A stretch of 48,092 nucleotides of DNA from Desulfuromonas sp. (lineage in GTDB: Bacteria; Desulfobacterota; Desulfuromonadia; Desulfuromonadales; Geopsychrobacteraceae), in the NCBI GenBank assembly GCA_002869695.1, contig PKUD01000199.1, positions 1 through 48,092 of the forward strand, in the 5' to 3' direction. This document shows, piece by piece, positions 32,128 to 44,733 of this stretch. Made by a program: the position numbers and the translations under genes. The notes under the pieces were generated by a model. That model did no database searches and was not told where the DNA came from. It worked only from the letters and a program-made list of their open reading frames with translations. The stretch's first letter is position 1. Each line of letters opens with the position of its first letter.

Positions 32128-32847
32128 TCACGTGCCGTAGAGTTTTAAAATCTCCTCCGTATAATCACGGCCGGGGCCACGATAGACGTACAGAGGCGGC
32201 TCGACAACCAAGCCCTGGCCACCACATTTGCGCCCTTCGACGAGAACGATCCTGGCTGCTTCGCCCAGTCGGGAATGAACACAGCGGAGTCGTTTCGGCT
32301 CCAGCCTCACGCCGCGCATCTTCTCCAGCAGTTCAGCCAGTCGTTCCGCCAGGTAGACCACGACAAAACGGCCCCCGTTGGTCAGCAGGTAACTCGCCGC
32401 TGACAGAAAGTCCTCCAGTCCGCCGGCCAGTTCATGGCGCGCGGCAGCTCGTTCATCCTCCGGAGCGACCCGGCCGCTGCCCGGTTTACGGTACGGGGGA
32501 TTGGCCACCACCAGGCCAAACGCAGCGGCAGGAAACAGATCGCGGATATTGCGCAGATCACCTTCGATGATCTGAATCTGTCCACCGAGATCATTCAACT
32601 CAACATTGCGCCGGGCCCGCTCCGCCAGCCCGCTTTGCAGCTCCAACCCGACGATCCGACTCGCCCCGTCCGATCTGGATAGCAGCAGCGGAATCACCCC
32701 CGCACCGGTCCCCAGATCGAGAATCGCCTGATCTCCGACGGCGCCGACGAACGCTGTCAGCAGGACCGGGTCAAGAGAATAGCGGTAGCCATTCCTGGCC
32801 TGAAGCAATTTAAATCCGCCGGGTTTCAACAGATCAAGGGTTTCCAA
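32128..32847 (-). CDS. tRNA1(Val) (adenine37-N6)-methyltransferase-like protein
   Basis: This 239-residue class I methyltransferase has the SAM loop LDLGTGAGVIPLLL and the adenine-N6 motif VVANPPYRKPGSGR. The start RNGYRYSLDPVLL region matches TrmN6/YfiC proteins. TTG 32847 has CGAGG 8 bases upstream and lies 16 bases past the cytochrome stop. The longer frame to 32988 would lie inside the cytochrome gene. It is thus probably translated from the cytochrome transcript. Confidence 0.88.
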   Translation of the reverse strand: METLDLLKPGGFKLLQARNGYRYSLDPVLLTAFVGAVGDQAILDLGTGAGVIPLLLSRSDGASRIVGLELQSGLAERARRNVELNDLGGQIQIIEGDLRNIRDLFPAAAFGLVVANPPYRKPGSGRVAPEDERAAARHELAGGLEDFLSAASYLLTNGGRFVVVYLAERLAELLEKMRGVRLEPKRLRCVHSRLGEAARIVLVEGRKCGGQGLVVEPPLYVYRGPGRDYTEEILKLYGT

Positions 32848-32863
32848 CGTTTCAACCTCGTAA

Positions 32864-34951
32864 TTAATATTCGACCGCCTGGGCCCGGTCATAAGTCTTC
32901 GCTTTATGGCAACCGGCCGCACAGCTTCCGCCGGTTTCGGTGGGACGGAATTTGACCGGTACCTGCCATTTTCCGAAACCGGGCACACTGCTGACGATCA
33001 ATTTCTGCTGCTCTCCACCATGCACGCCGTGACATGCCCGACAGCTTCTTCCTTTTGGCGCCTTGTTGACATGCAGGGCATGCAGATTCGTATAGCCGTT
33101 GCGAAAATCGGTCAGTCCCGATGTCCGCTTAAGAATAAAAGCCTGCGCATCGTGGCAATTGAAGCAGAGCTGATATTCGTCTTCGGCAAAAGCGACATAC
33201 AGCTGATCAGCATAGCGTCCCTTGAGCAGGAGTGGCTGGTCAGTCCCATGCGGATCATGACACCCCCAGCATTCTCCGTCAGCTACCGGTTGATGCAGGT
33301 AGTTGTGTTTCTCAAGACTGTCACTGAACGCAGGGTGACACCCAAAGCAGAACGCTTTCGGCTCCTCGACCAGCATCAAACCATGACCACTTCCATGGGG
33401 ATCATGACAACCGACGCAGCCCTGCTCCATCGCCAGGTGCGGAACTTTTGCCGAAATCGCCCGCTCCACGACAGCCTCGTGACAGTCGCCGCAGAGCTGG
33501 TCACCGGTCTTGGGCAGCATCAACTCGGCCGGCCCACTATGGGGATCGTGGCATGTCGTACAGCCATCCAGAACAGCGGAATGAAGATTCTCCTTCGCCA
33601 TCAGGGTCGCTTTGTCTTCGTGACAGGAAAGACAAAGTCTGCTTCCCGACACCGACAGAAGTGCCTTCTCAGGCGCCGCATGAACCTCATGACAGTCCCG
33701 GCAATCCCCGGCGGCGACCGGATCATGAACAAACGCCCGAGACTTCACACTGACGTGACACTGATCACAGAGACGGCTTCCCGAAGCGGAGAGCAATTTC
33801 TCGGCCTGCCCCTGATGCGGGGCGTGACAACTGGTGCAGTCATCCTCCGCAATCGGACCATGCACATAGGCCATTCCAGCCGTAACGTCCCCATGGCAGC
33901 GAACACAGAGCTCGACACCGGCTACCTGCAGCATAGCCGGATTGGAACTGGCGTGCGGATCATGACAGGCCAGACAGTCCCCTTCAGCAGCAGGCATATG
34001 GGTACTTGCACCGGTTGCCGTTTTACTCTCATGGCAGCGGTAGCAAAGCTCGCTCCCCTCGGCCGAAAGCAACATCTGTTGATCTCCGGCATGGGGATCA
34101 TGACAAGCGCCACAGCCTTCAGCAAGAGCCGGATGGATCACCGTCTTTCCGGCGAGGAAATTATCGTGGCAGGAGAAACAGAGCTGTCTGTCTTCCCAGG
34201 CCAACATCTGCGGCAGATCTGATGCATGCGGATCATGACAGGAACCACATTCGCCGGCAGCGACCGGCTGGTGCAGGAATGGCTTACCCAGACTCGGGTC
34301 GTCGTGACAGATCAAACAGAGGGCTCCGCCGGTTGTCGGCAAGAGCGTTTCGGCAGCCCCGGCGTGCGGGTCGTGACAGACATGACAGCCATCAGCCATG
34401 ACCGGGTGTACGAACAGTTTCCCGTCGGTCTGATGCTGGTGGCACTGATAGCAGAGAGCACTCTCCTCCAGCGCAAGCATCCCCGGTTGCTGATCAGCAT
34501 GGGGGTCATGGCAGGTTCCGCAGCCTTCCTTCAGAGCGGCATGAACCGAGACGGCTCCACCGGTAACATCCTCGTGACACATGTAGCAGAGCCCCGGTTC
34601 CTGCTGGTAGAGAAGCTGTTGGTGGCTGGACTGATGAGGGGAGTGGCACCCGGTGCAGCCATCCTCCAGAACCGGGTGGCGGTGCCCTTTCCCCTTGGTG
34701 ACGCTGTCGTGGCAGCGGTAACAGAGATCGGCTCCAGGTTCACGCAGGAGGAATGCCCCCTTGACCCCGGGATGCACCTTTTTCTTCTGTTTGTGACAAG
34801 CCTCGCAGTTCAAATCAGCAACCGGCTGATGGACGAAGCGTGCCTGGCCCAGAATGGCATGGCAGTCGGCAGTCACGCAGCCTTCCAGCGCCAGAGCAGA
34901 ACCAGCCAGGAGGAGATAGAGCAATGTTGCCAGCAGAACCGGGCGCAGCAT
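32864..34951 (-). CDS. Multihaem c-type cytochrome with 27 candidate haem sites
   Basis: The protein has 695 residues. A Sec signal (LLATLLYLLLAGSALA) and no lipobox point to a periplasmic or exported protein. I count 25 CXXCH motifs, one CX4CH near residue 25 (CVTADCH) and one CX3CH near 677 (CAAGCH), 27 candidate haem sites in all. Residues from about 75 on consist of 12 tandem modules of roughly 45 residues, each with two motifs, the second usually CxxCHDPH (doubled CXXCH type). Extra His residues before the modules (VHP, LHQP) could be distal ligands. AAGGA lies 8 bases before ATG. It probably moves electrons across the periplasm or outward, next to the tetrahaem cytochrome. Confidence 0.93.
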   Translation of the reverse strand: MLRPVLLATLLYLLLAGSALALEGCVTADCHAILGQARFVHQPVADLNCEACHKQKKKVHPGVKGAFLLREPGADLCYRCHDSVTKGKGHRHPVLEDGCTGCHSPHQSSHQQLLYQQEPGLCYMCHEDVTGGAVSVHAALKEGCGTCHDPHADQQPGMLALEESALCYQCHQHQTDGKLFVHPVMADGCHVCHDPHAGAAETLLPTTGGALCLICHDDPSLGKPFLHQPVAAGECGSCHDPHASDLPQMLAWEDRQLCFSCHDNFLAGKTVIHPALAEGCGACHDPHAGDQQMLLSAEGSELCYRCHESKTATGASTHMPAAEGDCLACHDPHASSNPAMLQVAGVELCVRCHGDVTAGMAYVHGPIAEDDCTSCHAPHQGQAEKLLSASGSRLCDQCHVSVKSRAFVHDPVAAGDCRDCHEVHAAPEKALLSVSGSRLCLSCHEDKATLMAKENLHSAVLDGCTTCHDPHSGPAELMLPKTGDQLCGDCHEAVVERAISAKVPHLAMEQGCVGCHDPHGSGHGLMLVEEPKAFCFGCHPAFSDSLEKHNYLHQPVADGECWGCHDPHGTDQPLLLKGRYADQLYVAFAEDEYQLCFNCHDAQAFILKRTSGLTDFRNGYTNLHALHVNKAPKGRSCRACHGVHGGEQQKLIVSSVPGFGKWQVPVKFRPTETGGSCAAGCHKAKTYDRAQAVEY

Positions 34952-35090: not shown

Positions 35091-35132
35091 AAAAACAAAG
35101 GGCCGGCCTGGAAAATTCCAGGCCGGCCCTTT
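35091..35132 (-). terminator. Strong intrinsic terminator after the tetrahaem cytochrome gene
   Basis: A perfect 17-bp stem (35097-35113 with 35116-35132), very GC-rich in its middle, followed on the minus strand by GTTTTTCTG. It insulates the small cytochrome from the large one. Confidence 0.9.
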
Positions 35133-35153
35133 GCATAATAACGTTAAGGAAAC

Positions 35154-35471
35154 TTACTTGACGTGACACTCTTTACACTTGGTCGGGCCACCTTTTTCCT
35201 TGTGGCACCCTTTGCACTGGTCATGGAACGCTTTCTTGGCAGCAGGAGCCGCCTTGTCTACACCATGACAAGAGGTACAGGTACCGGCCTCAACACCTGC
35301 GTGGTGGCAGGCAGTACAATCATTGGCTGCATGCTTGGCGTGACTGAAAGTAATCGCGCCCATCTTTCCGCCTTTCAGCACGATATCATCAGCGGGAGCG
35401 TCAACAGCAACGGCTACGGCAACACTGGCGACAAAAGCAAGAACAGCAAACAGAACGACCAATTTTTTCAT
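35154..35471 (-). CDS. Small periplasmic tetrahaem cytochrome (c7/c3 type)
   Basis: This 105-residue precursor starts at ATG 35471, with AAGGAG 7 bases upstream; the frame extends to 35510 without support. A signal peptide (KKLVVLFAVLAFVASVAVA) leads to a mature domain of about 83 residues with four CXXCH motifs: CTACH, CTSCH, CKGCH and CKECH. Four non-motif His residues (SHAKHA, CHH, AFHDQ) could give bis-His coordination. PpcA-type c7 cytochromes have three haems and lack haem II; this one keeps the second motif, so it is closer to c3. Its role is probably as periplasmic electron shuttle. Confidence 0.93.
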   Translation of the reverse strand: MKKLVVLFAVLAFVASVAVAVAVDAPADDIVLKGGKMGAITFSHAKHAANDCTACHHAGVEAGTCTSCHGVDKAAPAAKKAFHDQCKGCHKEKGGPTKCKECHVK

Positions 35472-35523: not shown

Positions 35524-35551
35524 ATTATTACAACTCAGCCACTCCTGTCAA
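35524..35551 (-). promoter_or_regulatory. Sigma-70 promoter of the tetrahaem cytochrome gene
   Basis: On the minus strand TTGACA (35546-35551) and AATAAT (35524-35529) are separated by 16 bases, the -10 missing one consensus base. The start would be near 35517, about 46 bases before the ATG. Confidence 0.6.
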
Positions 35552-35588: not shown

Positions 35589-36113
35589 CTAGGTCAGCCC
35601 GTCGGCAGCTAACTTCTGCTGTACCTTGTCCGACTTCTTGACGACACCACTCGCCATGTCCTGTTTAAACGCAACCAGCTTCTCAGCTATTTGCCGGTCT
35701 GTTGTCGCCAAAATCTGGGCGCAAAAAATTCCCGCATTGCGTGCTCCCGCCGCACCGATCGCCATGGTCGCCACCGGAATACCGGCCGGCATCTGCACCA
35801 TCGCCAGCAGCGCGTCCAGTCCCTGCAGTGAGGTCGCATCGATCGGCACGGCAACCACCGGCAGGGTTGTCTCTGCAGCGACGACACCGGCCAGGTGCGC
35901 CGCAGCACCGGCACCGGCGATCATCACCCGGATGCCCCGCTCCCGGGCTTCACTGACGTACTTTGCCGTCCGTTCCGGGGTACGGTGCGCACTCGATACG
36001 ATCATCTCGAAGGGGATTTCAAACTGCTTGAGAACCTTCGCGGACTCGACCATGATTTCGTAATCATTGTCGCTGCCCATGAGAATTCCAACCAGCGGCT
36101 GCTTGTCACTCAT
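35589..36113 (-). CDS. purE: N5-carboxyaminoimidazole ribonucleotide mutase
   Basis: This 174-residue class I PurE interconverts N5-CAIR and CAIR in purine synthesis. The substrate-binding GSDNDYEIMV and SSAHRTPERT motifs, the AGAAAHLAGVVAAET loop and the LLAMVQMPAGIPVATMAIG segment are complete. GGAG lies 7 bases before ATG 36113. It is the last of three purine genes (purH-purD-purE order). No purK is in the window. Confidence 0.97.
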   Translation of the reverse strand: MSDKQPLVGILMGSDNDYEIMVESAKVLKQFEIPFEMIVSSAHRTPERTAKYVSEARERGIRVMIAGAGAAAHLAGVVAAETTLPVVAVPIDATSLQGLDALLAMVQMPAGIPVATMAIGAAGARNAGIFCAQILATTDRQIAEKLVAFKQDMASGVVKKSDKVQQKLAADGLT

Positions 36114-36141
36114 CTGCTTACTCCGTCGTTATTTAATCAGA

Positions 36142-37413
36142 TTATCGGTTCAGCGCCCGCGCGCCAATATCTTTGCGATAGTGAACATCCTGCCAATCGA
36201 TTGCCGCGACACCTTCATAGGCCTTATCGATAGCCTCACGGACAGAGTTGCCCAATCCGGTCACACCGAGCACCCGGCCACCATTATTGACAATCTGGCC
36301 CTCTTTAAGCTTCGTACCGGCGTGGAAGACAACCAGATCATCCAGCATCGCAGCCCGCTCCAGACCGGCAATCGGCAGACCTTTTTCGAATGCCCCCGGA
36401 TAGCCGCCGGACGCCATCACCACACAGACGGCGGCCTTGTCGTACCAGTCGATGGAATCCTGCTGCAACTCACCCCTGGCACAGGCCTGCAGTACCGGGA
36501 CAATATCCGACTTCATCCGCATCAGCAGCGGCTGTGCTTCAGGGTCCCCGAAGCGGGCATTGTACTCGACGACCCGTGGTTGACCGTCCCTGATCATCAG
36601 ACCGACGTAGAGAATTCCGACATACGGGCAGCCATCTGCGGCCATCCCGGCAACGGTCGGCCGGACGATCGAGTCAACAATGATATCGTGTAATTTTTCT
36701 GTTACAACCGGAGCCGGGGAATAAGCTCCCATGCCACCGGTATTCGGGCCCTCGTCATTGTCGTTAACCCGCTTGTGATCCTGCGAAGAGGCGAGCGGCA
36801 GAATATTTCTGCCGTCGGTGAAAGCAAAGAAAGACGCCTCCTCGCCATCCATGAATTCCTCGATCACCACACTGGCGCCTGCAGCGCCGAAAACCTTGTC
36901 GAGCATAATATCATCGACCGCGGCGATCGCCTGCTCCTCGGACATGGCAACGATGACACCCTTGCCTGCCGCTAAGCCATCAGCCTTGACCACAATCGGA
37001 GCGCCCTGTTCCCTGATGTAGTTCACCGCGGCCGCATGATCAGTGAAACTTTTATACGCCGCGGTCGGGATCTGATGCCTGGCCATCAGATCCTTGGAGA
37101 AACCCTTGCTCCCTTCGATCTGTGCTGCAGCTTTATTCGGCCCGAAAATGTCCAGACCGGCCTCCTGGAACATGTCAACGATACCCATGGTCAGCGGAAC
37201 TTCCGGACCGACAACGGTCAGATCGACTGCCTCCGCCTTGGCAAAAGCACAGAGTTCGTCAAGCTCATCGGCTCCGATATGAACACATTCAGCCAGTTCG
37301 GCAATTCCGGGATTCCCGGGAGCACAGTAGATTTTCTCGACCAGCGGCGACTGGGCAATCTTCCAAACCAGGGCATGTTCTCGGCCACCACCACCGACAA
37401 CCAAAATTTTCAT
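36142..37413 (-). CDS. purD: Phosphoribosylamine-glycine ligase
   Basis: The protein has 423 residues and is an ATP-grasp enzyme of purine synthesis. Motifs are MKILVVGGGGREHALVWKIA at the start, the VKADGLAAGKGVIVA lysine strand, EEFMDGEEASFFAFTDG, NTGGMGAYSPAP and the C-terminal YNARFGDPEAQ. It lies 28 bases before purE and 113 bases after purH. Confidence 0.97.
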   Translation of the reverse strand: MKILVVGGGGREHALVWKIAQSPLVEKIYCAPGNPGIAELAECVHIGADELDELCAFAKAEAVDLTVVGPEVPLTMGIVDMFQEAGLDIFGPNKAAAQIEGSKGFSKDLMARHQIPTAAYKSFTDHAAAVNYIREQGAPIVVKADGLAAGKGVIVAMSEEQAIAAVDDIMLDKVFGAAGASVVIEEFMDGEEASFFAFTDGRNILPLASSQDHKRVNDNDEGPNTGGMGAYSPAPVVTEKLHDIIVDSIVRPTVAGMAADGCPYVGILYVGLMIRDGQPRVVEYNARFGDPEAQPLLMRMKSDIVPVLQACARGELQQDSIDWYDKAAVCVVMASGGYPGAFEKGLPIAGLERAAMLDDLVVFHAGTKLKEGQIVNNGGRVLGVTGLGNSVREAIDKAYEGVAAIDWQDVHYRKDIGARALNR

Positions 37414-37526
37414 AATCGAACTCCTTGCTGGTCCCGCTGAAACCCTGTGAGACGACGAAAAATGAAATCCTTAGAAATTCAAGAACTCGTCAGCACAGTA
37501 TATCTGAGCAGTTGACCAATTTTTAT

Positions 37527-39092
37527 TTAATGGCGGAAGTGTCGCATTCCGGTAAACACCATGGCGATGCCGTGCTCGTCGGCCGCGGCAATGACCTCCT
37601 CATCGCGGATCGACCCCCCCGGCTGAATAACCGCCGTCACTCCGGCAGCGGCCGCATTGTCGATGCCATCGCGGAAGGGAAAAAAGGCATCCGACGCCAT
37701 GGCCGAGCCCTGCACTTCCAACCCCGCATGTTCGGCTTTGATCACGGCAATCCGGGCAGAGTTGACCCGGCTCATCTGCCCGGCACCGACACCGATGGTC
37801 ATTCCATCCTTGCCATAGACGATGGCATTTGACTTGACGAACTTGGCGACCCGCCAGGCAAACTGGAGATCTTCCTGCTCTTTCGCCGTCGGCACCCGTT
37901 TGGTCACCACTTGCAGGTCGGCACTGAGCTGCAGATCGGCATCCTGAACCAGCAGCCCGCCGTTGACCCGTTTGAAATCTAAACGCTGTCCGGTTTCGGC
38001 CGGCCATTCGCCACACTCGAGCAGTCGAACGTTCTTTTTGGCCGCCACCACTTCAGACGCCTCGGCGGCCACCTTCGGCGCGATGATAACTTCGACAAAC
38101 TGCTTGTCAACAATGGCTTGGGCGGTTTCGGCGTCCAGTTCCCTGTTGAAGGCGATAATGCCACCGAAAGCTGATTCAGGATCGGTGCTGAACGCACGCT
38201 GGTAAGCGTCGAGAAGGGTTTTGCCGACCGCGACCCCGCAGGGATTGGCGTGCTTGACAATCACGCAGGCCGGTCCCTCGCTAAACTGCTTGACGCACTC
38301 AAGAGCGGCGTCGGTATCGCCGATATTGTTGTAAGAGAGGGCCTTGCCCTGCAATTGTTTCGCCGTGGCGATAGACGCCTCGGTCACATCTTTTTCAACG
38401 TAGAAAGCTGCTTTCTGATGGGGATTCTCACCGTAGCGCATCCCCTGCGCCTTTTTAAACTGCAGGCTGAGTGCGGGGGGGAAATCGACCGCGTCATCAT
38501 CGACCTTGCACCCTAGCCAGTTGGAGATGGCACCGTCGTACGCAGCGGTATGCTGATACACCTTGACAGCCAATTTGAAGTTGGTCTCAGCGGAAACGGA
38601 GCCATTATTCTGCCGCATCTCTTCAATCACCGGAGCGTAGTCAGCGGGGTCAACCAGCACGGTTACCGACCGGTTGTTTTTGGCCGCGCTGCGCAGCATG
38701 GTCGGTCCACCGATGTCAATATTCTCGATGGCATCTTCCAAAGCGCAATCCGGTTTGGCCACTGTCGATTCGAAGGGGTAAAGGTTGACCACCACCAGGT
38801 CAATCGGCTCGATCCCATGCTCTGCCATGGTCGCAACATGCTCCTGGTTGTCTCGCAGGCCAAGCAGTCCGCCATGCACTTTCGGATGCAGGGTCTTCAC
38901 CCGGCCATCGAGCATTTCCGGGAAACCGGTAAACTCGGAAACGTCCTTGACCGGGATTCCTGCATCGCGGATCATCTTCGCGGTCCCCCCGGTAGAAAGA
39001 ATCTCAACCCCGAACCCATTCAGCTCACGAGCAAGTTCGACAATCCCCGCCTTATCGGAGACGGAGACCAGCGCACGTTTGATGACAGCCAT
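37527..39092 (-). CDS. purH: Bifunctional AICAR transformylase / IMP cyclohydrolase
   Basis: The protein has 521 residues and catalyses the last two steps to IMP. The IMP-cyclohydrolase (MGS-like) domain is at about 1-190 ([34 protein letters not shown]). The transformylase domain follows, with [11 protein letters not shown]-like [14 protein letters not shown] and [12 protein letters not shown], which carries the catalytic Lys-His. It ends FTGMRHFRH. Complete. It is the first gene of the purine group; the preceding ASKHA gene is closed by a terminator, so purH likely has its own promoter. Confidence 0.97.
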
Positions 39093-41753: not shown

Positions 41754-41904
41754 CTTGCACTGGGGCTGCAATCACTATGACAACGCAACGCCAGCCCACG
41801 ACTTGCGGTATAAGGTTAACCCGGCATCCTGTGCTGGCGCCACCTGGCTACGCTGGTGGAACAGGCAAGACCGTGTCTGCGGTATAACCCCTAGGAGCGT
41901 ACTG
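41754..41904 (+). promoter_or_regulatory. Structured-looking 5' leader of thiED, unassigned
   Basis: The leader can form several hairpins: GGGCTG (41763-41768) with CAGCCC (41792-41797), CCGGCA with TGCTGG (41821-41837 region), and CCACC with GGTGG (41840-41860 region). The 10-mer TGCGGTATAA occurs twice (41804-41813 and 41878-41887); GGTTA near 41814 could pair with TAACC near 41885. The TPP riboswitch core (CTGAGA, then ACCTGATC...GGATAATGCC) is not present. No known riboswitch class was recognised. Confidence 0.5.
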
Positions 41905-43332
41905 ATGCTTTCTGGTCTCTACCTGATTACCGATGACAATCGCGATGGCAACCTGCTGAGCCGGGTTCAGGATGCGCTCCGCGGGGGAGCCCGCGTGGTT
42001 CAGTATCGCGCCAAGCACCAGTCCCCTGCTGAACGTATGGCGACAGCCGAACTGCTGCATGCCGCCTGCCGTGCGGCCGGTGCCAAATTTATTATTAATG
42101 ACCTCCCCGAAATGGTCCGCGAGATAGACGCCGACGGAGTCCATCTGGGGCAGGATGATATGTCGATAAGCGAAGCCAGACAGATTGTCGGACGTGACAA
42201 ACTGATCGGTATCTCCACGCACAGTGTCGACGAAGCGCTCAAAGCCGAAAGTCACGGCGCCGACTATGTCGCTCTCGGCAGCGTGTTTGCCACCGATACC
42301 AAGGACGACGCAAACGTAGTCGGTCTCGACACCTTGAGTAAAGTCCGGCGCGCGGTGCGCATCCCTCTGGTTGCTATTGGCGGGATTGATCCGGCCGGTG
42401 CAGACCTGGCTATCGAAACGGGGGCTGATGCGATAGCCGTCATTTCCGGGGTCATGAATGATTCGAACCCGGCGATCGCGGCACGCGAGTATTCCCTGCT
42501 GTTCAATCGCCACCGCGATCTCCCGCGGGGGCGGGTCATGACGATTGCCGGTTCTGATTCCGGAGGCGGAGCGGGCATTCAGGCCGACCTGAAGACGATC
42601 ACCCTGCTCGGCAGCTACGGCAGCAGCGTGCTTACCGCCCTGACCGCGCAGAACACCCTGGGTGTCGATGCGATCGAGCCGGTCCAGTCCGGATTTGTCA
42701 GCGCCCAGATCGATGCGGTTCTCTCGGATATCGGTGCCGACACAGTCAAGACCGGCATGCTCAATTGGGGCGGCATCATCGTTCGGGTTGCCAGGGCGAT
42801 CGAACAGCACGCTCTGCTCTCTGTTGTCGATCCGGTGATGGTCGCCAAGGGCGGAGCCAAGCTGCTTGACAAGGAAGCCATCGACAGCCTGCTGGCACAC
42901 CTGATCCCTCGGGCTTTCCTGCTCACACCGAACCTGCCGGAAGCGGAAACCCTGACCGGCATGCCGGTCGAGACCGAGGCAGAGATGGAACAGGCCGGTC
43001 GCAGCCTGCTCGAGCTCGGAGCGCGCAACGTCCTGCTTAAGGGTGGACATCTGCAGGGTGCTGCCGTTGACCTGCTGTTCATCGGTGACCAGATGCATCG
43101 CCTCGAAGCACCGCGGATAGACACGCGCAATACCCATGGAACCGGTTGCACCTATTCTGCGGCCATAGCCACCTTCCTGGCCCAGGGCTACCCGCTGCTG
43201 AAAGCTGTCGAACGGAGCAAGCAGTTCATCAATCTGGCCATTGAAAATGCCGTTGATTGCGGTGCGGGCCACGGCCCGGTCAATCATTTACGTGCAGCGC
43301 AACTGCTCGACCAGGAAAAAGATGCAGATTAG
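41905..43332 (+). CDS. thiED: Bifunctional thiamine-phosphate synthase / HMP(-P) kinase
   Basis: The protein has 475 residues from ATG 41905, with AGGAG 9 bases upstream; the frame extends to 41755 without a ribosome site. The ThiE half (about 1-205) has LYLITDDN, VQYRAKHQSP, FIINDLPEMV, DGVHLGQDDM and ISTHSVDEA. The ThiD half (about 210-475) has MTIAGSDSGGGAGIQAD, VDPVMVAKGGAKLL and the NTHGTGCTYSAAIAT nucleotide loop. It couples HMP-PP formation to ring joining in thiamine synthesis. thiC follows 96 bases downstream. Confidence 0.95.
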   Translation: MLSGLYLITDDNRDGNLLSRVQDALRGGARVVQYRAKHQSPAERMATAELLHAACRAAGAKFIINDLPEMVREIDADGVHLGQDDMSISEARQIVGRDKLIGISTHSVDEALKAESHGADYVALGSVFATDTKDDANVVGLDTLSKVRRAVRIPLVAIGGIDPAGADLAIETGADAIAVISGVMNDSNPAIAAREYSLLFNRHRDLPRGRVMTIAGSDSGGGAGIQADLKTITLLGSYGSSVLTALTAQNTLGVDAIEPVQSGFVSAQIDAVLSDIGADTVKTGMLNWGGIIVRVARAIEQHALLSVVDPVMVAKGGAKLLDKEAIDSLLAHLIPRAFLLTPNLPEAETLTGMPVETEAEMEQAGRSLLELGARNVLLKGGHLQGAAVDLLFIGDQMHRLEAPRIDTRNTHGTGCTYSAAIATFLAQGYPLLKAVERSKQFINLAIENAVDCGAGHGPVNHLRAAQLLDQEKDAD

Positions 43333-43370
43333 TATCGGCAAGCAGCCGGCAACTCCAGTTTTGCTCACAT

Positions 43371-43410
43371 GCAGCGTCACAGTCCTGGGACTGCCGACGC
43401 TGCTTTTCTC
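43371..43410 (+). terminator. Hairpin between thiED and thiC, possible attenuator
   Basis: A stem GCAGCGTC (43371-43378) / GACGCTGC (43396-43403) with an inner pairing AGTC / GACT, followed by TTTTCTCTG. It lies 18 bases before the thiC start, so it may tune thiC expression or end thiED transcripts. Confidence 0.55.
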
Positions 43411-43428
43411 TGTTCACAGGAAAAAAAT

Positions 43429-44733
43429 ATGACCCTATTGGAAATGGCCCGAGCGGGCCAGATTAACGACCTCATGCGTCAGGCAGCCAGCACCGAAAAT
43501 ATTGACCCGGAACTGCTGCGCCAGAAGATTGCGGACGGCACCGCCGTCATCTGTCGTAACGTCAAGCACACCAATGCGCCACCCCTGGCCGTTGGCGCAG
43601 GCCTGAGGACCAAAACCAACGCCAACATCGGCACCAGTCAGGACGATACAAGCATCGATAAGGAGCTCGACAAAGCCAAGGTTGCCGTTGCTGCCGGTGC
43701 CGATGCGATCATGGATCTTTCAACGGGCGGACCGATCGACGAAATTCGGGCGGCGATCGCAAATCAGACCAATATCTGCCTCGGTAGTGTCCCTCTCTAT
43801 CAGGCCGCCTGCGATGCGGTCCTCAAACAGGGCAAGCCGATCGTTGATATGACCGTTGATGATATTTTTGCCGGGGTTATCAAGCATCTGGAGGATGGGG
43901 TTGACTTCATTACCGTCCACTGCGGTGTGACCCGCGACACAGTTGCACGGATGGAGCAGGAAGGTCGGATCATGGAGGTCGTCTCACGGGGCGGGTCCTT
44001 CACGGTCGAGTGGATGCTTTACAACAACGCAGAGAATCCCCTTTACGAACACTTTGACCGGCTGCTGGAGATTGTCCGCCCCTACGATGCGGTCCTCTCA
44101 CTGGGAGATGGATTCCGCCCGGGCTGCCTCGCCGACGCCACCGACAGGGCCCAGATTCATGAACTGCTGCTGCTTGGTGAACTGACCCAACGGGCCCAGG
44201 ATGCCGGCATCCAGGTGATGATTGAAGGCCCCGGCCACGTCCCACTGAACCAGATCGAGGCCAACATCAAGCTACAGAAACGCCTCTGTCACGGCGCGCC
44301 GTTCTACGTGCTGGGTCCGCTGGTCACCGACATAGCTCCCGGCTACGACCATATCACCTCGGCGATAGGTGGCACCATTGCTGCGGCCGCAGGGGCTGAC
44401 TTCCTCTGCTACGTCACCCCCAGCGAGCATCTGCGTCTGCCGACGATCGAAGATGTCCACGAAGGGGTCATGGCCGCACGTATCGCCGCCCATGCCGCCG
44501 ATATCGTCAAAGGAGTTCCGGGCGCGATAGAAAAAGATCATGCCATGGCCCGTTGCCGCAAGAACCTGGACTGGAAAGGTCAGTTCAAGCTGGCGATCGA
44601 TCCCGAAAAAGCCCGGCGCTTGAGGGCCGAATCGGGGGTCGACGAAGAGCATGGTGCCTGTACCATGTGCGGAGCGCTCTGTGCCTACAAGGTGATGAAC
44701 GAGCGACACGACAAGGAGACGACACCCAGTTAA
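43429..44733 (+). CDS. thiC: Phosphomethylpyrimidine synthase
   Basis: The protein has 434 residues from ATG 43429 (MTLLEMARAGQINDLM), with AGGA 7 bases upstream. It is a radical-SAM enzyme making HMP-P from AIR. Characteristic segments are AVGAGLRTKTNANIGTS, ADAIMDLSTGGPID, GRIMEVVSRGG, DGFRPGC, EGPGHVPLNQIE and YVLGPLVTDIAPGYDHIT. The cluster motif near the C-terminus reads CTMCGALC, i.e. CX2CX3C, whereas the long E. coli form has CX2CX4C. The length is that of short ThiC proteins. Confidence 0.96.
   Translation: MTLLEMARAGQINDLMRQAASTENIDPELLRQKIADGTAVICRNVKHTNAPPLAVGAGLRTKTNANIGTSQDDTSIDKELDKAKVAVAAGADAIMDLSTGGPIDEIRAAIANQTNICLGSVPLYQAACDAVLKQGKPIVDMTVDDIFAGVIKHLEDGVDFITVHCGVTRDTVARMEQEGRIMEVVSRGGSFTVEWMLYNNAENPLYEHFDRLLEIVRPYDAVLSLGDGFRPGCLADATDRAQIHELLLLGELTQRAQDAGIQVMIEGPGHVPLNQIEANIKLQKRLCHGAPFYVLGPLVTDIAPGYDHITSAIGGTIAAAAGADFLCYVTPSEHLRLPTIEDVHEGVMAARIAAHAADIVKGVPGAIEKDHAMARCRKNLDWKGQFKLAIDPEKARRLRAESGVDEEHGACTMCGALCAYKVMNERHDKETTPS

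Follow-up and report, generated by a model that had tools for sequence, protein, structure and literature searches.

The window, that is, the whole stretch of 48,092 nucleotides from Desulfuromonas sp. that we analysed, encodes on its minus strand a multihaem cytochrome of 695 residues (Table 1); the plus-strand reading of the same interval, 32864-34951, is interrupted by an internal stop codon. The protein contains 25 CXXCH motifs together with one CX4CH and one CX3CH motif, and all of its 54 cysteine residues are found inside these 27 sites. The CXXCH motifs are spaced by 22-28 residues until residue 561, after which the intervals are 35 and 41. These data bear out the original prediction with respect to the interval, the length of the chain and the inventory of motifs, with the gene placed on the minus strand; likewise, the anticipated density of about one haem per 26 residues is matched by a computed value of 25.7 (695/27). 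As at least two CXXCH motifs are present in only one other frame when all six frames of the window are considered, namely that of the neighbouring four-haem gene, the array is not a product of chance. With the signal peptide placed by eye, the first haem site would lie three residues past the mature N-terminus.

The multihaem gene is preceded by the gene for a small four-haem cytochrome, for which we chose ATG 35471 as the start (the list of open reading frames has TTG 35510) and on whose product the CytC7 and TmcA models stay below their cut-offs. A terminator-like hairpin separates the two genes; our scan near the multihaem gene returned 2 hairpins versus 4.2 expected in shuffled sequences. 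Since a hairpin is found at this position in 12 of the 15 loci having both genes, production of the four-haem carrier may exceed that of its larger neighbour. Directly 3' of the multihaem gene lies trmN6, with TrmN as its best model, albeit below cut-off (68.1 versus 350 bits); it overlaps the multihaem gene by 29 nt if ATG 32892 is its start. No gene for an outer-membrane partner is present near the multihaem gene in the window. Further along, we take positions 41755-43332 (plus strand) to be an apparent fusion of two thiamine genes, presumably followed by a third at 43369-44733.

Table 1. Features of the multihaem cytochrome locus; positions are those of the window.
Feature	Position	Strand	Basis
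Candidate wire gene, 27 probable haem sites, 695 aa	32864..34951	minus	ORF (ATG at 34951, stop ends at 32864), motifs, 12 PF09699 domains, homologues
Likely signal peptide, aa 1-21	34889..34951	minus	By-eye reading of the translation
N-terminal CX4CH (CVTADCH), aa 25-31	34859..34879	minus	Motif scan; shared by 46 of 49 N-terminally complete homologues
C-terminal CX3CH (CAAGCH), aa 677-682	32906..32923	minus	Motif scan; shared by all 50 homologues
Conserved C-terminal cap, about aa 585-695	32867..33199	minus	Alignment of long homologues, cap profile, class-wide search
Extra two-haem module, approximately aa 142-186 (borders may shift by a few residues)	34394..34528	minus	Alignment columns 122-166
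Four-haem cytochrome (c3/c7 type), likely electron carrier	35154..35471	minus	PDB matches to c3/c7 cytochromes including PpcA
Terminator-like hairpin between four-haem and multihaem genes	35095..35134	minus	18 pairs
Promoter-like site before the four-haem gene	35524..35551	minus	11 of 12 matches; 2 such sites in the region, chance expectation 1.9
TrmN-like methyltransferase (trmN6), directly 3' of the multihaem gene	32128..32892	minus	TrmN best model; synteny
purE, purD and presumed purH upstream, locus markers	35589..39092	minus	purE and purD models over cut-off; purH matched across loci

The Pfam domain PF09699 matches 12 stretches of the protein, in agreement with the 12 two-haem modules that had been foreseen; the layout counted from the first CXXCH motif deviates from this number, as it consists of one N-terminal site followed by 13 pairs, the last of which combines a CXXCH with the CX3CH motif. 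Modules 1-11 comprise 45-50 residues and module 12 comprises 76, and the best matches of the modules in other species are mostly collinear along the chain, with exceptions. Growth by internal duplication, also part of the original prediction, finds support in homologues that differ by whole modules and in the window genus, which has exactly one extra module of 45 residues. This module is restricted to the window protein and that of the sole sequenced genus-mate (genome G001; the window genome is G000) among 16 aligned long homologues, and is missing from those with 25 haem sites. We found no tandem array at the DNA level in the gene, only weak repeats, and the modules of the window protein share 22-52% pairwise identity. 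A recent duplication by slippage was rejected on these grounds; the duplications, which it had been suggested to date from DNA, are old.

A bis-His haem requires one histidine beyond its motif. Among the 33 non-motif histidines of the window protein, 25 are invariant in the alignment of long homologues (14 proteins with 25 sites and two with 27), and two further ones are conserved within the extra module in the rows of the window and G001, which yields 27 histidines for 27 sites. We repeated this count for six length classes, leaving out the single 13- and 21-haem rows, and obtained 9 conserved non-motif histidines for 9 sites (2 rows), 11 for 11 (7 rows), 14 for 15 (13 rows), 18 for 19 (6 rows), 25 for 25 (14 rows) and 27 for 27 (2 rows). 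The equality is thus exact in four of the six classes and needs both end motifs as haem sites, while the 15- and 19-haem classes each fall one conserved distal histidine short. The 7- and 14-row classes carry the weight of this argument, because the two-row classes share histidines partly by descent. All 27 sites, end motifs included, are therefore probably haem-binding, as judged from their conserved ligands. The notion that the non-standard motifs at both ends might mark special haems gains substance in the same way, given their retention across homologues (Table 1) and a ligand count that fits haems at both ends. CX4CH sites occur in cytochromes c3 as well. Our protein bears a weak similarity to the class III cytochromes c3/HmcA, but has its CX4CH site at the N-terminal end only and modules of the paired CXXCH type.

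A search for relatives of the protein covered 98 genomes (its own included), 65 of which gave a match. From the loci of the best 30 matches, another scan and further stretches we assembled a pool of 124 open reading frames with at least six CXXCH motifs, and defined as homologues those 50 whose match to the C-terminal end of the window protein has an E value of at most 2e-25; the one ranked after them stands at 2e-8. The CX3CH motif is present near the C-terminal end in all 50, and the CX4CH motif in 46 of the 50; L044 is cut by a contig end, and L055, L142 and L143 are without it. Only the 46 proteins with both end motifs entered the later counts and the tree. Their total number of sites is odd without exception: 9 in two proteins, 11 in seven, 13 in one, 15 in thirteen, 19 in six, 21 in one, 25 in fourteen and 27 in two, one more CXXCH before the CX4CH in three of the 15-haem proteins having been left out of the count. 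Hence, our protein belongs, on the evidence of its sequence, to an MtrA-like family of variable length between two fixed ends, and the 27 sites found in the window and G001 are the longest among the 46. A profile of the C-terminal cap matches in 146 of the 277 genomes of the class, and members with more than 27 haems are possible, as most of these class-wide matches were seen as frame lengths only. In a tree of the end caps (46 rows; 14 of 43 inner branches weak), the two 27-haem proteins are joined with support of 100/98 at the end of a long stem branch, and 11 changes of haem number are needed. The 13-haem protein of G034 (stated genome completeness 76%) falls together with three proteins of 25 haems (99/95) and has therefore probably lost modules. 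Within one open-licence literature library, we recognised no paper on this family of varying length, on its end caps or on the absence of neighbouring genes described below. Separately, a relative of 1045 residues with 42 CXXCH motifs, which is without the CX4CH and CX3CH ends, is encoded in the Deltaproteobacteria MAG OFTM73 (L008:7905-11042).

Among PDB matches by sequence, the MtrA chain of 6r2q ranks first (E 2e-17 by sequence and 9e-25 by profile; the first chain of this entry is mislabelled in the sequence table, the entry title, Mtr complex, being correct). The model for DmsE/MtrA decahaems (TIGR03508) scores 264.3 bits against a cut-off of 192.2, a value that is inflated since the repeats match in five stretches. 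Common to these decahaems and our protein are the paired CXXCH repeats; they differ in their ten haems as opposed to 27 sites, and no MtrB-type barrel gene adjoins ours. The decahaem model for the GSU2203 family (NF041028), whose repeats are related, reaches 248.3 bits and thus stays under its cut-off of 325; a true member of that family (461.9 bits) is encoded on contig C142 of G000, the contig that also holds the only PF11854 match of this genome. As to the wire-like fold that had been suggested, the homology to MtrA speaks for it, whereas the AlphaFold models are of low confidence for both the 27-haem protein (modelled without haem; pLDDT 52.8) and an 11-haem homologue (44.6), and structure prediction was dropped as a proof of such a fold. 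The sole Foldseek match of the model is again MtrA (E 7.9e-5, TM 0.15/0.33, rmsd 16), to which we give little weight. A further lead is GSU0615, a putative homologue.

An observation of its own concerns the MtrB-family barrel gene of G000, located outside the window (C142:12347-14431; L113), which contains an in-frame TGA codon. Of the 12 homologues we looked at, 10 share the TGA at one aligned position and have a conserved frame after it (G033 has none, and G029 is cut), so that we rejected the reading of the gene as broken. Just downstream of the TGA is a hairpin-like, apparently covarying stretch, and a tRNA-Sec scores over its cut-off in G000. The gene is not a new selenoprotein gene either, as the family already figures in passages of two selenoprotein reviews.

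We examined 44 loci of the family and counted 31, setting aside L053, L012 and those having the 15-haem paralogue only. Upstream of the multihaem gene, 27 of the 31 have a pur gene, 15 the four-haem gene and 13 ResB and/or CcsA. On the downstream side, an NHL protein is encoded in 29, an 8-haem cytochrome in 27, and an OmcE-type nanowire cytochrome and a barrel-like protein in 21 each, some of the missing downstream genes being accounted for by a contig that stops there or by the limit of the retrieved sequence. In relatives these genes form a cassette behind the multihaem gene, and beyond this cassette lies trmN6 in eight loci (G007, G056, G057, G062, G067, G072, G073, G090). In both G000 and G001 the cassette is absent from this place and trmN6 directly follows the multihaem gene; G000 is a draft of 219 contigs, so that absence there is no proof, and the direct junction is seen in both genomes. 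The OmcE-type protein of the relatives matches the OmcE filament structures 7tfs and 9yuq. The barrel-like protein of about 740 residues matches no family or solved structure, and its length, leader and terminal F suggest a putative barrel; of ten genomes searched for it two have a match, G000 and G001 not being among them. The profile of the 8-haem cytochrome gives only partial matches in G000 and G001, in other multihaem proteins. Each of these two genomes encodes two OmcE-like proteins elsewhere, and a second set, located on contig C124 in G000 and C39 in G001, combines OmcE-type, 5-haem, NHL-size and 670-680-residue proteins according to the lists of open reading frames; NHL matches occur at like sets in our comparison of loci. 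A ppcA-omcE neighbourhood occurs in Geobacter.

Two features of these loci deserve mention in their own right. The cytochrome c assembly genes ResB/CcsA stand directly before the multihaem gene in 13 of the 31 loci (L046, L049, L050, L051, L054, L059, L061, L123, L124, L128, L129, L132, L134), the others mostly having the four-haem gene there; perhaps they form an assembly system devoted to the odd end motifs. Moreover, a 415-residue protein with 20 CXXCH motifs, about one per 21 residues, adjoins the 15-haem paralogue in G000 and G001 (L063:6410-7654 on contig C26 of G000, L139:8676-9920, L053:9116-10390 and L137), and no NCBIfam model scores over its cut-off on it.

Gene sets of a similar kind have been described. 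A passage of PMC12016550 reports a locus of Geoalkalibacter ferrihydriticus with homologues of MtoA and OmcE and two NHL proteins, a gene content that it has in common with the loci of the relatives. The PCC3 periplasmic cytochromes, as portrayed in excerpts of PMC5566968 and PMC10734462, possess 21-27 haems in repeat units and are proposed to act as wires spanning the periplasm, a likeness by description. Their clusters include a porin, an extracellular cytochrome and a five-helix membrane protein, according to the same excerpts; none of these is found beside our gene with its pur, four-haem and methyltransferase neighbours.

Collectively, these data suggest that the protein most likely serves as a periplasmic electron wire. 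We consider it probable that an exported chain of 27 bis-His haems with fixed ends, fed by small carriers, would conduct electrons towards the outer membrane and an acceptor located there. The c-type cytochrome, in which 12 two-haem modules separate the CX4CH cap site from a C-terminal cap pair that has CX3CH as its last motif, would form a straight chain that electrons enter from carriers such as the product of the neighbouring four-haem gene, and along whose haems they would hop outwards. In relatives, the acceptor is probably the assembly of 8-haem, barrel-like and OmcE proteins encoded just downstream. With this assembly absent at the locus of the window genus, the wire must serve another outlet there, perhaps the second OmcE-type gene set elsewhere in the genome. 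The length of the chain would change through the gain or loss of whole modules between the fixed ends.

The homology to MtrA, the many invariant non-haem residues of the C-terminal cap, and the barrel-like genes at the locus of the relatives and at the second OmcE-type locus of G001 and G000 would also accord with an MtrA-type conduit through the outer membrane, in which a barrel with its gene elsewhere would enclose the C-terminal part, the added modules reaching into the periplasm. We regard this as conceivable but unlikely: no barrel gene lies beside the multihaem gene, the barrel-like protein of the relatives finds no counterpart in the two genomes, and the MtrB-family barrel of G000 adjoins its own decahaem MtrA-like gene, while G001 has no PF11854 match at all. 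Less probable still is an electron store, a capacitor whose charge capacity would follow from the number of haems and which could do without a fixed outlet. Such a store could account for haem numbers that vary between 9 and 27 at one locus and for the persistence of the protein in two species that lack the cassette; the unusual motifs at its fixed ends and the conserved C-terminal cap, however, suggest defined contact points, for which a store would have no need.

The rate at which the protein diverges bears on whether it is still required. Between G000 and G001 it is 54% identical, as compared with 86% for purD and 91% for purH. Among the 36 genome pairs listed, three that retain the downstream genes at similar purD/purH values gave 81% (G005-G020; purD 88, purH 91), 75% (G007-G022; 86 and 88) and 71% (G007-G028; 89 and 92, purH over 277 residues only). 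The protein has hence changed faster in the window genus, yet every haem ligand was kept. This fits partner surfaces that have been freed while the haem chain is still under selection; it fits early decay as well, and could, against our main reading, indicate a relaxed need for the wire. That the protein is a mere relic, decaying after the loss of its partners, as its low identity and the long stem branch of the genus might suggest, is nevertheless very improbable, given that both copies are open, conserve 27 motifs and 27 non-motif histidines and have the extra module in common, and that fast change of such cytochromes outside the haem coordination, which itself stays, is reported in a passage of PMC12977616.

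Returning to the periplasmic wire, a more daring version of it would have the protein bridge the whole periplasm on its own, as the former inner arm of an OmcE-type nanowire system that continued without this system and became one module longer. A passage of one review puts the number of haems needed across a periplasm of 200 A at about 27 (PMC7096707). Against this estimate stand the homologues with 9-13 haems that serve at the same locus elsewhere, and a length fixed by the periplasm was rejected as a rule for the family, its haem numbers ranging from 9 to 27 at one and the same locus. We therefore advance the bridge only tentatively, as an idea with rather modest chances. If true, the protein would become a candidate trans-periplasmic path independent of small diffusing cytochromes; an unidentified periplasmic path independent of PpcA-E is spoken of in a section of another review (PMC12307469).

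The one-histidine-per-site count offers a cheap sequence test for true haem binding at CX3CH, CX4CH and other odd motifs. The question on which the family bears is how electrons cross the periplasm to reach the outer membrane and nanowires. Its window member indicates that such a wire can be kept even where the nanowire partners are missing from the locus, and the family as a whole constitutes a natural length series, from 9 to 27 haems with the same two ends at one locus, in which length may be related to function module by module.
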